Below the pieces are notes generated by a model. It had not been told where the DNA came from and ran no database searches. It saw only the letters and a list, made by a program, of their open reading frames with translations. From contig JBBEBQ010000005.1 of the NCBI GenBank assembly GCA_040882285.1, forward strand, positions 303,681-367,680: 64,000 bases of DNA, in the 5' to 3' direction. Numbering within the stretch: the stretch's first letter is position 1; each line of letters opens with the position of its first letter. The stretch comes from Gemmatimonadaceae bacterium (GTDB taxonomy: Bacteria > Gemmatimonadota > Gemmatimonadetes > Gemmatimonadales > Gemmatimonadaceae). Positions 23,851-56,793 of this stretch are shown piece after piece. Made by a program: the position numbers and the translations under genes.

Positions 23851-23920
23851 AGCTATTGGCTGTTGGCTGTTGGCTGTTGGTAGTTAGCCAAGAGCCAATA
23901 GCTAACAGCCAACAGCTCTC
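23851..23920. repeat. Heptad element between hppD and hmgA
   Basis: Ten 7-bp units in one phase: CTATTGG, three CTGTTGG, TAGTTAG, CCAAGAG, CCAATAG, CTAACAG, CCAACAG, CTC... The second half is the reverse complement of the first, and AGCTATTGGCT pairs perfectly with AGCCAATAGCT. It begins at the hppD stop and ends seven bases before the hmgA start, so it must be transcribed within the operon. Confidence 0.92.
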
Positions 23921-25189: not shown

Positions 25190-25380
25190 CGACTACGGAC
25201 TGAGGACCCTTGCGGCCTCAGGACTAACGGCCATCGCGGATCGGCGATTAATCGAGGACCGAGGATCGCGGAATTCCTACCTCCTTAGTCCTCAATTAGT
25301 CGTCGATCGTCGATTGTAGTTAGTCCTGAGGCCGCAAAGGTCCGCAATCCGCAATCCGCAATCCGCAATCCGCAATCGCA
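25190..25380. repeat. Large heptad element with 25-bp inverted arms
   Basis: The 341-bp gap between hppD and the next gene holds this element. Arms 25204-25228 and 25319-25343 match as reverse complements at 24 of 25 positions, 90 bp apart. Five perfect TCCGCAA units follow at 25341-25375, and GAGGACC/GAGGATC words lie inside. The word CTTTGCGGCCTCAG is shared with the element at 54355-54410. The bases from 25046 to 25189 show nothing recognisable. Confidence 0.9.
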
Positions 25381-25386
25381 GGCCTA

Positions 25387-25575
25387 TCAGCCGGCGCCTC
25401 GCTCTTTGCCGCGCGCGGCGGCGAGCCGCCGGGCGATCCCGCGATAAAAGGCCGCGTCGTCCGGGCGCTGCTGCTCCTCCAGCCACAGCGCCGTCGCTTC
25501 CAGCGCGTACAGGATGTTGCCGAGATAGAGCTCGGCAAGCTGCGCGACGGATTCAGGACGATCGGGCTCGTCCAA
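25387..25575 (-). CDS. Small helical protein downstream of PP2C
   Basis: A 62-residue acidic-then-basic helical protein (DEPDRPESVAQLAELYLGNI, then ATALWLEEQQRPDDAAFYRG, then IARRLAAARGKER). The TTG start lies six bases after the PP2C stop, so translation is probably coupled. The sequence has a coding look: amphipathic leucine-rich helices and no low complexity. Family not recognised. A role with the phosphatase is suggested only by position. Confidence 0.6.
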   Translation of the reverse strand: MDEPDRPESVAQLAELYLGNILYALEATALWLEEQQRPDDAAFYRGIARRLAAARGKERGAG

Positions 25576-28728: not shown

Positions 28729-28741
28729 CTGCCCGTTGACT

Positions 28742-28804
28742 ACCACATAGAACGGATAAGCTGCGAGCTACCAGCTAGAAGCTTATCCGTTCTAAGTGGC
28801 AGTT
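28742..28804. repeat. Heptad element forming a near-perfect hairpin
   Basis: Nine 7-bp units in phase, four of them ending in AGCT (ATAAGCT, GCGAGCT, ACCAGCT, AGAAGCT). TAGAACGGATAAGCT (28748-28762) pairs perfectly with 28780-28794, and CCAC/GTGG extend the stem. A CAGTTTT tail follows. The shared words GCTGCGAGCT and GTGGCAGTTT mark it as a sibling of the element at 45486-45652. Confidence 0.92.
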
Positions 28805-38398: not shown

Positions 38399-38507
38399 CA
38401 TGCCTCCAATCCTTGTTGAGTGGACCCGGCACAGAGTGTGGGGTCGCATACTTAGACTGGGTGGGCAGACGCTTGTTAAGGCTCTGTGGCTCCAGGGATC
38501 TGGACGG

Positions 38508-38603
38508 GGAATCCAAGTTTGGAGTGTGGCAGTTCGGAGATCGAAGTTAGGAGTCACTCCTCACTGTCCCACTCCCTACTGCCACACTCCCTACTTGGAT
38601 TCC
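38508..38603. repeat. Heptad element with 26-bp inverted arms
   Basis: Arms 38508-38533 and 38578-38603 are reverse complements at 24 of 26 positions. Between them the 7-bp period continues (TTCGGAG, ATCGAAG, TTAGGAG, TCACTCC), with a symmetric centre GGAGTCACTCC. It fills the gap between uppS and the Spy/CpxP-like gene. Confidence 0.92.
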
Positions 38604-43731: not shown

Positions 43732-45330
43732 TTGAGCACGTCATCTTCTCACGAGGCATGGGGCACCCGCATCGGGTTGATCCTTGCCATGGCGGGCAAC
43801 GCCGTCGGGCTGGGTAATTTCCTGAGGTTTCCACGACAGGCCGCGGTGAACGGCGGCGGGTCGTTCATGATCACCTACTTCATCGCGCTGCTCCTGCTCG
43901 GCATCCCGCTGATGTGGATCGAGTGGGGCGTGGGGCGGAACGGCGGCCGGTTCAGGAAGGGCCACATCCCCGGGATGTTCGCGGCGATCTGGAAGCATCC
44001 CGCGGCCAAATACCTCGGCATCATCGGCATGATCGTGCCGTTGACCGTGATGATCTACTACACGTACATCGAGAGCTGGACGCTCGCGTTCTCCTTCTTC
44101 TCGATCACGAAGGACTACTGGGGCAACACCTCGCAGGAAGCGATGGTGGGGTACCTCCAGTCGTATCAGGGGATCACCGCGGGCAGCAGCCACATGACCG
44201 CGCTCGGCTTCTTCCTGGTTACGCTCGCGATCAACATCTGGGTGCTGTCGCGCGGGATATCCGGGGGAATCGAGAAGCTGGCGCGGATAGGAATGCCGAT
44301 CCTGTTCCTGTTCGCCGTGGTTCTCATGGTCGTCGTGATCTTCCTTCCGGCGGGCCCTGGCGGCGAGACCGCGTGGCAGGGACTGCAATTCATCTACAAC
44401 CCGGATTTCTCCCGCCTCGACGAGCCGAGCGTCTGGCTGGCGTCGGCCGGACAGATCTTCTTCACTCTGTCCGTGGGCATGGGCTCTTTGCAGGCATACG
44501 CATCCTACCTGTCGAAGAAAGACGACATCGCGCTGAACGGCATCGCCACCGCGGCGACCAATGAGACCGCCGAAGTCATCCTCGGCGGCACGATCGCGAT
44601 CCCGGCGGCGGTAGTGTTCTTCGGCGTCACCGGCGCGATGGCGGTGGCGCAGTCCGGCTCGTTCAACCTCGGCTTCGCGACGATGCCGGTGGTGTTTCAG
44701 CAGATGCCGATGGGCAACGTGCTCGGCTTCATGTGGTTCATGCTGCTCTTCTTCGCCGGCATCACTTCGTCGGTCGCGATGCTCACGCCGATCGTGGCGT
44801 TCTTCCGGGAGGAATTCGGCTGGAAGCGCGAGATCATCGCCTGGTCGTTCGGACTGGTCACGCTGCTGTTCGGCCTGATGAACATCTTCTGGCTGCAGTA
44901 CGGCTTCCTCGACGAGTGGGACTACTGGGCGGGGACGTTCGGCCTGGTGGTGCTCGCCGTGATCGAGACGGTGCTCTTCATGTGGGTGTTCAAGCCGGAG
45001 AACGCGTGGGCGTCGATCCACCAGGGCGCGGACATCCAGATCCCGCGCATCTTCAAGTTCGTGATGACGTACGTCACGCCGGTGTACCTGCTCTTCATTC
45101 TCGGATGGTGGGGCTTCCAGGACGCCATTCCGATTCTCACCAACGCCAAGGCGGCCGGCGGCGGAACGCTCACGGCGGAGATGCATCCTTACGTCACGAC
45201 GGCTCGACTGGTGATCGTCGGCTTCGCCGTCGTGTTCGCGTTCCTCATCCGGATCGCGTGGAAGCGCAACAACTATGACGACCGCGCCGGCTTCGTGGAA
45301 GTCGACCAGTCAGGGAGGACGGCGGTATGA
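43732..45330 (+). CDS. Sodium:neurotransmitter-symporter family transporter
   Basis: A 532-residue inner-membrane transporter of the NSS (LeuT-like) family with twelve hydrophobic segments. TM1 carries MAGNAVGLGNFLRFPRQAAVNGG, the sodium- and substrate-binding unwound helix; TM6 to TM8 lie around FFTLSVGMGSLQAYASYL. These proteins take up amino acids or related solutes with sodium. The TTG start at 43732 lacks a clear ribosome-binding site. The ATG of the small partner gene overlaps the stop (ATGA). Confidence 0.94.
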   Translation: MSTSSSHEAWGTRIGLILAMAGNAVGLGNFLRFPRQAAVNGGGSFMITYFIALLLLGIPLMWIEWGVGRNGGRFRKGHIPGMFAAIWKHPAAKYLGIIGMIVPLTVMIYYTYIESWTLAFSFFSITKDYWGNTSQEAMVGYLQSYQGITAGSSHMTALGFFLVTLAINIWVLSRGISGGIEKLARIGMPILFLFAVVLMVVVIFLPAGPGGETAWQGLQFIYNPDFSRLDEPSVWLASAGQIFFTLSVGMGSLQAYASYLSKKDDIALNGIATAATNETAEVILGGTIAIPAAVVFFGVTGAMAVAQSGSFNLGFATMPVVFQQMPMGNVLGFMWFMLLFFAGITSSVAMLTPIVAFFREEFGWKREIIAWSFGLVTLLFGLMNIFWLQYGFLDEWDYWAGTFGLVVLAVIETVLFMWVFKPENAWASIHQGADIQIPRIFKFVMTYVTPVYLLFILGWWGFQDAIPILTNAKAAGGGTLTAEMHPYVTTARLVIVGFAVVFAFLIRIAWKRNNYDDRAGFVEVDQSGRTAV

Positions 45331-45485
45331 CACCGGGAGCGATCATCTTCATGGCCCTGAGCTGGGGGTTCGTGCTCGGGCTGGTCTCGTGGGCGTTTTA
45401 TCGGCTGCTGACTCACAAGAAGCATCACGATCCGGATGGAATCGGGCCGGCAGTGCCGCCGGAGGGGTCGGTGACGGGCAGATAG
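45327..45485 (+). CDS. MetS-like small NSS transporter subunit
   Basis: A 52-residue, single-helix membrane protein whose ATG overlaps the transporter stop. It starts TPGAIIFMALSWGFVLGLVS with the helix, ends in a His/Pro-rich cytosolic tail (THKKHHDPDGIGPAVPPEG), and matches the MetS family. In Corynebacterium, MetP (NSS) needs such a MetS subunit for methionine uptake. The usual length is about 50-60. It suggests a neutral amino acid substrate, without proving methionine. It is too short for common gene-finding limits. Confidence 0.88.
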   Translation: MTPGAIIFMALSWGFVLGLVSWAFYRLLTHKKHHDPDGIGPAVPPEGSVTGR

Positions 45486-45652
45486 TTCCACTGCCACTTC
45501 GACTGCCACTTAGAACTGCCAAGCTGCGAGCTGCCAGCTGGAAGCGGCCAGCTGCGAGCTGCCTACGATTCTGACCGTCAACATCGTTCGCAGCTCGTAG
45601 CTGGCGGCGTTTTTCGCTGGCCGCTCGCAGCTTGGCTGTTCTATGTGGCAGT
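45486..45652. repeat. Heptad element with 37-bp inverted arms
   Basis: Arms 45502-45538 and 45616-45652 are reverse complements at 34 of 37 positions. From 45513 on, the 7-bp period is exact (CAAGCTG, CGAGCTG, CCAGCTG, GAAGCGG, CCAGCTG, CGAGCTG). Its right end carries the stop codon and the last four codons of the MFS gene. It shares GCTGCGAGCT and GTGGCAGTTT words with the element at 28742. Confidence 0.93.
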
Positions 45653-46840
45653 TTCCCGTCTGAGCCGCGCTAGCCGTTTAATCGCGACGATCCCCGCCGC
45701 CGGGCCGAGTGCCAGAAAAAAGAGCGCCCACCGCCATCCCACGCGCGCGGCGAACTCCGGAACGAGCTGCATCGGCAGCATCGTCAGCAGAAACCCGAGC
45801 GACGTCTGCATCGTGAGCGCGGTACCCACCGCGTGCCGCGGCACCGACTCCGTCACGAGCGTGCTGAATTGCGCGCTGTCTGCGATCACGAAGAAGCCCC
45901 ACGCCATGGCGAAGGGCGCGAGCAGCCAGAGCGAGGTTCCGAACAACAGCGCGCTCAGGAGGCAGCATGCGCCGCTGGCCACGAGCGAGATGGTGACGAG
46001 CTTCTCTCTCCCTTCCTTGTCGGCGAACAGTCCGCCCCAGACGCATCCCGCTCCACCGATGGCGATGGCGAGGAACGAGAGCAGCGTGACGGGTGCGGTG
46101 GAATCCGGATTGCGCGCGAGCACGCTCGCCGCGAGGAAGGCGGGGATCCACGTCCACACCGCGTACAGCTCGAACATGTGGCCAAGGTAGCTCGCCGTCG
46201 CGAGCCGCCACTCGCGGACGCGCGCGACCGAGCCGACCAGCCCCCAGGAGAACGGCCGCGATGCGAACGCGTACGGCCCGTCCCGGAATCCGATCCACAC
46301 CAGCAACGCGGCGATGGCCGCGCCCGCCGACGCGGCGAGCACGACGGGCGCGGGGCCCGTCTCGGGAATCGCGTTCACCAGATACGGCGTGGCTTTCCCG
46401 ATCGTGAGCGCTCCGACGATCGTGCCGATCGCGAGTCCCCGCTGGGTCAGGAACCACGTCGCGATCATCTTCATCGCCGGCGGATACACTCCCGCGAGGA
46501 AGAATCCGGTGAGGAACCGTAGCGCCAGCGCGCCCTGGTAGCCGTCCACCGAGAGAATCGCCGCGTTCGCGGCGGCGCCCGCCAGCGCGGACAGCGCGAA
46601 CAGCGTGCGCGAGCGGACGATGTCGGCGAGGTTGAGCGTCGCGGCGACGGCCGTCCCGGCGACGAAGCCGAGCTGCACCACCGTGGTGAGCCAGCCTGCC
46701 TCCGACGCGGACAGCCCCCACAGCGCGGCGAGCTGCGGCGACACCGCGCTCGCGGAGAACCAGAGCGACATTCCGAGCAGCTCGGCACTACCGAGCAGGG
46801 CCAGCGCCCGCCACTTTCCGGAGTCGGCCACCTCTTGCAT
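45641..46840 (-). CDS. Major facilitator superfamily transporter
   Basis: A 399-residue transporter with about twelve membrane segments. The ATG at 46840 is chosen because longer in-frame extensions are low-complexity. TM1-2 carry ALLGSAELLGMSLWFSASAV and the loop motif LNLADIVRSRTLF; TM4 has GFFLAGVYPPAMKMIATWFL. It resembles nitrate/cyanate (NarK/CynX)-like and sugar-phosphate-type MFS families, but the substrate is not clear. Its last four codons and stop (ETAT, TAG) are provided by the right arm of the heptad element. Confidence 0.9.
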   Translation of the reverse strand: MQEVADSGKWRALALLGSAELLGMSLWFSASAVSPQLAALWGLSASEAGWLTTVVQLGFVAGTAVAATLNLADIVRSRTLFALSALAGAAANAAILSVDGYQGALALRFLTGFFLAGVYPPAMKMIATWFLTQRGLAIGTIVGALTIGKATPYLVNAIPETGPAPVVLAASAGAAIAALLVWIGFRDGPYAFASRPFSWGLVGSVARVREWRLATASYLGHMFELYAVWTWIPAFLAASVLARNPDSTAPVTLLSFLAIAIGGAGCVWGGLFADKEGREKLVTISLVASGACCLLSALLFGTSLWLLAPFAMAWGFFVIADSAQFSTLVTESVPRHAVGTALTMQTSLGFLLTMLPMQLVPEFAARVGWRWALFFLALGPAAGIVAIKRLARLRRETAT

Positions 46841-47180
46841 GGCCGAAAAGGTAGCAAGGGGAAATAGATGCAGGACGAGCGCCGCGCGCTGGTGCTGCCC
46901 TCCGTCGCCACGGTGCGGCCCGACCTGGGATCCGGCGGACGAGCGCGAGGAGTCGTTGCCCCGCGCGAAGGAAGTTGGGGCGGGCCGCGCGCCCAACCCG
47001 GCGCTGCGGATGATGTCGCGACCCCACAATGCTCCAGACGAAAAAAAGGGCTGACGAAAGTCAGCCTTTTTTTTGTCGGAGGGGCGCTTCCGATCAGTCC
47101 TGCTAGACTGCCGCCCCGGAGCGAGGACGGAGGGTCCGGACAACGCCCCTCCGCCTCGTTCTTCGCGACGGCATCGCTAC
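46841..47180. other. GC-rich gap, no gene seen
   Basis: 340 bases between the MFS start and the DUF3494 gene end. About 46868-47030 is GC-rich and partly self-complementary (GTTGGGGCG / CGCCCAAC) and ends in a bidirectional terminator at 47041-47074. No ORF of coding character is present. A plus-strand RNA of about 200 bases ending at that terminator would be possible but is not supported by any known RNA family I could recognise. Confidence 0.35.
47041..47074. terminator. Bidirectional terminator
   Basis: AAAAAAAGGGCTGAC-GAAA-GTCAGCCTTTTTTTT: a 7-bp perfect stem with a GAAA loop, an A-run in front and a T-run behind. It ends the minus-strand gene at 47181 and could end plus-strand transcripts too. 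Confidence 0.95.
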
Positions 47181-56178: not shown

Positions 56179-56708
56179 CGCTTCCCCCGCTTGCTCGCCG
56201 GCTTGCGCGCGCGCGCGGGAGCAGCGGGATCGGGCTGCTCCAGCACCGCGTCCCGCATCCCGTCGCGGCGCGTGCTGAGCGCCGCCTGAAATTTCACGTG
56301 CTTGCGCGCGACTATCTGCGCCGCCAGCAGCGCCGCGTTGATCGCGCCGGCCTTGCCGATCGCCAGGGTTCCGACGGGAACTCCCGCGGGCATCTGCGCG
56401 ATGGACAGGAGCGAGTCCAAACCCTTGAGCGTCTTCGATTCGACGGGCACGCCCAGCACCGGGAGCATCGTCTTGGCGGCGGTCATGCCGGGCAAATGTG
56501 CCGCGCCGCCGGCTCCCGCGATGATCACCTCGAGCCCGCGCTGCTCCGCCGACGAGGCGTACTCGAACAGCAGGTCGGGTGTCCTGTGCGCTGAGATCAC
56601 TTTGGTCTCATGCGGGATGCCGAGCTCCGCGAGCGTATCGGCCGCGTGCGACATCGTCTCCCAGTCGGACCGGGAGCCCATGATGATGCCGACGAGAGGA
56701 GCGGGCAT
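56175..56708 (-). CDS. purE: N5-CAIR mutase
   Basis: A 177-residue enzyme converting N5-CAIR to CAIR. The active-site segment [25 protein letters not shown] and [15 protein letters not shown] are intact; the last 15 residues form a Lys/Arg-rich tail not usually seen. It overlaps purK by four bases. There is no Shine-Dalgarno: one base upstream of the ATG begins a tandem array of twelve 7-bp units, so translation must start from unusual leader sequence. Confidence 0.97.
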
Positions 56709-56709
56709 G

Positions 56710-56793
56710 GTGATTGGTGACTAGTGACTGGTGACTGGTGACTGGTGACTGGTGACTAGTGGCTAGTGATTAGTGATTAGTGACTAGTAACTG
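56710..56793. repeat. Twelve GTGAYTR heptamers in the purE leader
   Basis: An exact 84-bp array of twelve 7-bp units fitting GTGAYTR with a few variants (for example GTGATTG, GTGACTG, GTGACTA, GTGGCTA). It ends one base from the purE start codon, replacing the usual ribosome-binding site. Unlike most other elements, it has no inverted half. Confidence 0.95.

Follow-up and report, generated by a model that had tools for sequence, protein, structure and literature searches.

The long palindromic repeat at the end of an MFS transporter gene in the Gemmatimonadaceae genome studied here is probably a non-autonomous (ORF-less), intergenic, intervening-sequence-like element, a relative of the rRNA intervening sequences. 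Related copies are dispersed through the genus, occur in forms with and without a gene for an intervening-sequence protein (IVP; PF05635), carry arms that are co-inherited with this protein, lie at gene ends and, at one locus, can be compared with a precise empty site. The element was studied in its window, that is, the whole stretch of 64,000 nucleotides analysed (G000:C5:303681-367680, in a MAG of 2.89 Mb), and in three further members of the genus (G001, G002 and G003).

The element and the stop codon of the MFS gene

The element spans 45501-45653, has no assigned strand and is a long imperfect palindrome in which the terminus AACTGCCACATAGAAC is followed by a heptad arm and a variable centre, as delimited by arm alignment, family consensus and RNA fold. 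A preliminary description of this DNA had reported mirrored 37-bp arms matching at 34 of 37 positions, and this was borne out: the left arm (45502-45538, + strand) and the right arm (45616-45652, + strand), each of 37 nt, are 92% complementary. Folded as RNA, positions 45486-45660 reach -118.1 kcal/mol against -62.0 +/- 3.8 for shuffles (z = -14.7), and a 67-bp sibling at 28738-28804 has a z of -9.3, so the palindrome is far beyond chance. The same description called the repeat a heptad element running from 45486 to 45652. The period of 7 is real, although the heptads are degenerate (73% matches), and the consensus terminus moves the limits to 45501-45653, with 45486-45500 (+ strand) being an additional, incomplete copy of this terminus, CACTGCCACTTC, which lies outside the left arm and is no arm itself. 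The sibling, also unstranded and earlier placed at 28742, does end with the same word (GTGGCAGTTT) beside a different gene: it lies directly 3' of the stop of a small + strand gene, and a UvrA-like gene follows 48 bp further.

Other heptad repeats occur in the window. An ORF-less member of another heptad family, GGAATCCAAGTTTGGAGTGTGGCAGT, occupies 38503-38603 (also given from 38488; no assigned strand); this family has dozens of copies in G003 and G001, and its IVP-coding form is found in the window's own genome at G000:C5:295025. Tandem GTGACTA/GTGATTA heptads lie at 56708-56793; heptads of this type also make up the family that occupies the G000:C12:8134 site in G001 and G003. GCTGTTG heptads at 1227-1257 and 23852-23880 resemble the arms of the IVP gene at G000:C25:172454, while TCCGCAA heptads at 25320-25400 stand beside CCTGAGGCCGCA, which is a motif found in the GGACTGA family of IVPs (G003:C91).

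Two genes converge on the element. On the plus strand, a small ORF conserved in the genus (45327-45485) ends with a TAG at 45483-45485, 15 bp before the element; on the minus strand, the MFS gene (45641-47143; PF07690, predicted start uncertain) has its stop, 45641-45643, inside it. The right arm had been credited with the last four MFS codons and the TAG; it holds ACT GCC ACA TAG, i.e. the stop and three sense codons, whereas the fourth codon (GAA) straddles the boundary. The site is occupied in all four species, by versions of the element that have diverged or been shortened, and in every one of them the MFS stop lies inside the element terminus, at offsets of +10, +16, +16 and +19. The earlier suggestion that the element invaded the gene end and provided a new stop holds insofar as the element supplies this stop in all four genus members, but it did not visibly cut off a conserved end of the protein. 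The longer native C-terminus proposed as a check in orthologues lacking the element was not seen: MFS relatives outside the genus carry no element and have, after AIRRL, a variable C-terminal tail of similar length. These tails give no evidence for the loss of a conserved end, and truncation of the MFS protein by the element is not supported.

A family of arms shared with IVP genes

Each copy consists of the 16-bp terminus AACTGCCACATAGAAC, then TGCCAAGC, heptads of the CTGCGAG/CTGCCAG/CTGGAAG type, a variable centre and the mirror image. The arm is ~58 bp long with GTGG at its outer end, and ORF-less copies, which measure from ~60 to 215 bp, are the majority. The terminus form AACTGCCAC is also used to name the ends of this family, and ACTGCCAC arms designate the family whose cognate IVP gene is of the G000:C5:173723 type. 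Searching the window's own genome with the element gave 63 local matches, in many cases a palindrome matched once on each strand. Across the loci retrieved from the four members of the genus, 108 termini were recognised by score, compared with 5 after shuffling, and grouping the termini that scored at least 18 gave 57 elements (~57 copies in four genomes), counts that cover the loci and matches fetched. Among the 41 genomes searched, the element was present in all four of the genus and in none of the 37 others from the family or order, and it was not found in phage, plasmid or IMG/VR viral-contig searches. Rfam returned no family at threshold, with sub-threshold fits to long-hairpin miRNA models only.

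The heptads adjacent to the terminus are lineage-specific, with GCGA in G000 (18/25) and G001 (15/18) and GGTA in G002 (21/28) and G003 (9/16). Given that this split holds even at shared sites, it suggests homogenisation or repeated re-insertion, and may reflect concerted evolution of dispersed copies. Within a genome, arm likeness is 0.829 for the two arms of one element and 0.823 for arms taken from different elements, which gives no indication that the arms of an element correct each other.

Full-length members connect these arms with IVPs. At G000:C5:173517-174159, a segment of ~520 bp between these arms carries an intact PF05635 ORF ('23S rRNA-intervening sequence protein', E 2.7e-25; solved relatives 2GSC and 2RLD), and IVP ORFs lie between the same arms at G002:C166 and G003:C163 as well; the window copy has no IVP ORF. 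Both forms are found at one and the same site, as a 643-bp IVP-coding element in G000 and a 149-bp ORF-less element in G001 (G001:C23). PF05635 has 10-14 matches in each genus genome, with an internal stop in one match only, and none in 14 control genomes, and 32 of the 39 IVP genes examined in the genus sit between significantly inverted arms. The arm families differ (GCTATTG, GTGATCA, CAGGTAT, CTGCGTG, GGAATCCAAGTTTGGAGTG, GGACTGA and the window-element type) and have a 7-bp period in common; at IVP loci, arm autocorrelation is 0.48 at lag 7 and 0.40 at lag 14, compared with ~0.25 elsewhere. Arm similarity tracks IVP similarity (Mantel r = 0.53, 0/5000 permutations). In the wider class, PF05635 occurs in 50 of 149 genomes; significant inverted arms were found at 15 of 28 IVP loci sampled outside the genus, and the other half or so, which lack them, are counter-evidence.

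The armless exceptions within the genus include a PF05635 class, KDLKLWQEAVAL, present once per genome (G000:C27:18310, G001:C221:1137, G002:C165:58601 and G003:C298:2285), which is apparently vertically inherited and perhaps domesticated. Where the neighbours of an IVP locus in G000-G003 are co-oriented, the IVP gene is mostly antisense to both (14 vs 4).

In full-length members, the centre between the inverted arms is the gene for a four-helix-bundle protein (S23/IVP) that may recognise the arms of its own family and help them to move or spread in trans. We infer that the IVP mobilises the element; no transposition was observed. We know of no catalytic activity of PF05635 proteins.

Position at gene 3' ends

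When genes were predicted with a simple caller based on codon usage, 55 element ends proved to be no more than 25 bp from the 3' end of a gene, compared with 11 near a 5' end. The IVP-coding elements lean the same way (22 vs 6), as does the window's own genome by itself (~17 vs 2, counted by hand). Among 74 termini with a scored neighbouring ORF, eleven stops are TAA codons formed by a flanking T and the AA of the element (offset -1), three lie 10 bp inside the element (the TAG of CACATAG) and two 16 bp inside, with most others no more than 20 bp outside. Convergent gaps account for 24 of the 56 gaps with an element but for only 9 of the 72 without (Fisher p = 1.8e-4); such p values make the case look stronger than it is, since sites shared between species are not independent.

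The comparison of species yielded a single clean empty site, that of G001:C342, where G001 and G002 have the element and G000 (G000:C11) and G003 (G003:C123) lack it. In the empty-site sequences (GATAGGACAACCTATC in G000 and GGTAGGCTATCC in G003), two convergent stops nearly touch, and the comparison places the insertion exactly between them, with no target duplication. Unrelated families can also occupy the same site: at G000:C12:8134, G001:C311, G001:C361 and window position 28738, sister species hold a different heptad family in the same gap. The C6:102168 site was left outside the orthologue comparison, as no alignment was obtained.

Taken together, the 3'-end excess, the convergent enrichment, the empty site and the presence of unrelated families at the same site indicate that gene ends are preferred, and the other alternative raised in the preliminary description, that gene ends are preferred targets, is well supported. 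The preference may reflect survival rather than targeting, because selection would remove hairpins elsewhere; either targeting of, or survival at, gene 3' ends would explain the stop supplied to the MFS gene. At the RNA level, the hairpin is predicted to occupy the final stretch of each of the two convergent transcripts, where RNase III would probably cleave it, as it does rRNA intervening sequences.

A hairpin already present at the insertion point was considered separately. Flank complementarity was 5.4 vs 5.06 of 12 (p 0.04), a signal carried by three elements with longer arms, and this reading was therefore not accepted. The palindrome GATAGG-ACAA-CCTATC is seen at the one empty site, a single anecdote.

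Alternative explanations and known systems

Among the alternatives, the one that survives best is that copies are selected by the host as bidirectional terminators or 3'-end stabilisers, being kept to end or protect both convergent transcripts. Location directly 3' of stops and between convergent genes agrees with such a role. An intrinsic terminator, however, combines a G+C stem with a T-tract, and at 45300-45900 there is no T-tract and there were 0 terminator calls; moreover, sister-species sites are empty or held by other families, and neither the spread of the element nor its IVP gene would be explained. As the main explanation we consider this rather unlikely, while as a secondary role it is compatible with the intervening-sequence-like reading that we prefer.

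It is improbable that the element is a MITE derived from a common DDE-type insertion sequence whose transposase moves it in trans. Like IS-derived MITEs, the family has long inverted terminal repeats and small dispersed copies, with ORF-less forms beside ORF-bearing ones. Unlike them, it leaves no target-site duplication: across 35 elements, duplications of k = 3-8 were as frequent as in shuffled sequence, and the empty-site pair has none. The only ORF type found between such termini is the IVP, and the element occurs in no plasmid or phage record. No transposase gene or IS with these ends was found in the window's own genome, an absence that is not absolute in a MAG 96.6% complete.

Retro-mobilisation, in which a reverse transcriptase would copy the hairpin RNA with the Avd-like IVP as its partner, appears more doubtful still. 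The Avd protein of diversity-generating retroelements is reported to be homologous to PF05635, both being four-helix-bundle proteins (2GSC for PF05635 and 4DWL for Avd; PMC10053308), and insertion without target duplication would fit. Unlike in those retroelements, however, a reverse transcriptase is missing from three of the four genomes: RVT_1 (PF00078) is absent in G000, G001 and G002 and present in G003 only.

That the element is a repeat of the REP/REPIN kind, moved by a RAYT (Y1 transposase), is very improbable. As in REPIN/RAYT systems, short dispersed intergenic palindromes far outnumber the gene that may serve them in trans. REP units measure 20-40 bp and carry a tetranucleotide tag; GTGG does stand at the outer end here, but as part of a ~58-bp heptad arm, far longer than a REP. 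The cognate gene encodes a four-helix-bundle protein, and Y1_Tnp (PF01797), detected in 10 of 14 control genomes, was not found in the window's own genome, for which RAYT mobilisation is largely ruled out, apart from the 3-4% that the assembly lacks. Expansion of heptads by local slippage, with no mobile element, is hardly credible. Heptad tandem repeats do change in number, and heptads are the most frequent long repeat unit in most of the bacterial genomes that were surveyed (PMC4679880), but both ends carry a fixed 16-bp terminus that is not a heptad and recurs at dozens of loci; this and the exact insertion at the empty site refute slippage as the sole cause. The TAACTGA heptad repeats of Beggiatoaceae are likewise intergenic, contain stop codons within heptads and can form gene ends; unlike this element, they are direct, lie mostly upstream of start codons and have no reported link to S23 (PMC4679880).

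The preferred reading, that of an intervening-sequence-like element, has its closest working model in the published rRNA intervening sequences, which are excised by RNase III and suspected of past mobility; the one in Coxiella 23S rRNA has inverted ends, an S23 ORF and tandem GACAGAT heptamers upstream of the ORF (PMC4990558). With the rRNA intervening sequences of Coxiella, Leptospira and Xanthomonas, the family shares heptameric repeats, a long stable hairpin from inverted ends (z = -14.7 here; arms at 32/39 IVP loci) and a PF05635 ORF between inverted arms, the latter in full-length members with the same arms and not in the window copy. It differs from them in being intergenic at the ends of protein genes, in its many copies per genome and many arm families, and in its ORF-less majority. 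The defining location is a 16S/23S rRNA helix; this element and its siblings are found between protein genes instead, and for this reason we do not file it as an rRNA intervening sequence.

Work on intervening sequences and the S23 protein goes back to the early 1990s; to our knowledge, they have no accepted role or mobility mechanism. A search of the open-access literature, with most subscription papers outside it, turned up no account of comparable S23/IVP elements in intergenic DNA. The window repeat is a member of a class of intervening-sequence-like gene-end elements and not a one-gene curiosity, and the IVP gene of the longer members suggests that the rRNA insertions are one branch of this larger class. 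More tentatively, S23/IVPs might be the mobility or arm-recognition proteins of a widespread, little-described class of gene-end mobile hairpins. Each subfamily would recognise its own heptad arm and position copies, with or without an ORF, exactly at stop codons and chiefly where two genes converge; the rRNA intervening sequences would then be the branch that landed in rRNA and was noticed first. With dozens of intergenic relatives in one genus, arm families that go with protein subfamilies, derivatives that lack the ORF and one exact empty site, this becomes a testable problem of arm-protein recognition. A mobile hairpin can rewrite bacterial gene ends by supplying stop codons, and such elements could account for many of the anonymous heptad repeats in metagenome-assembled genomes.
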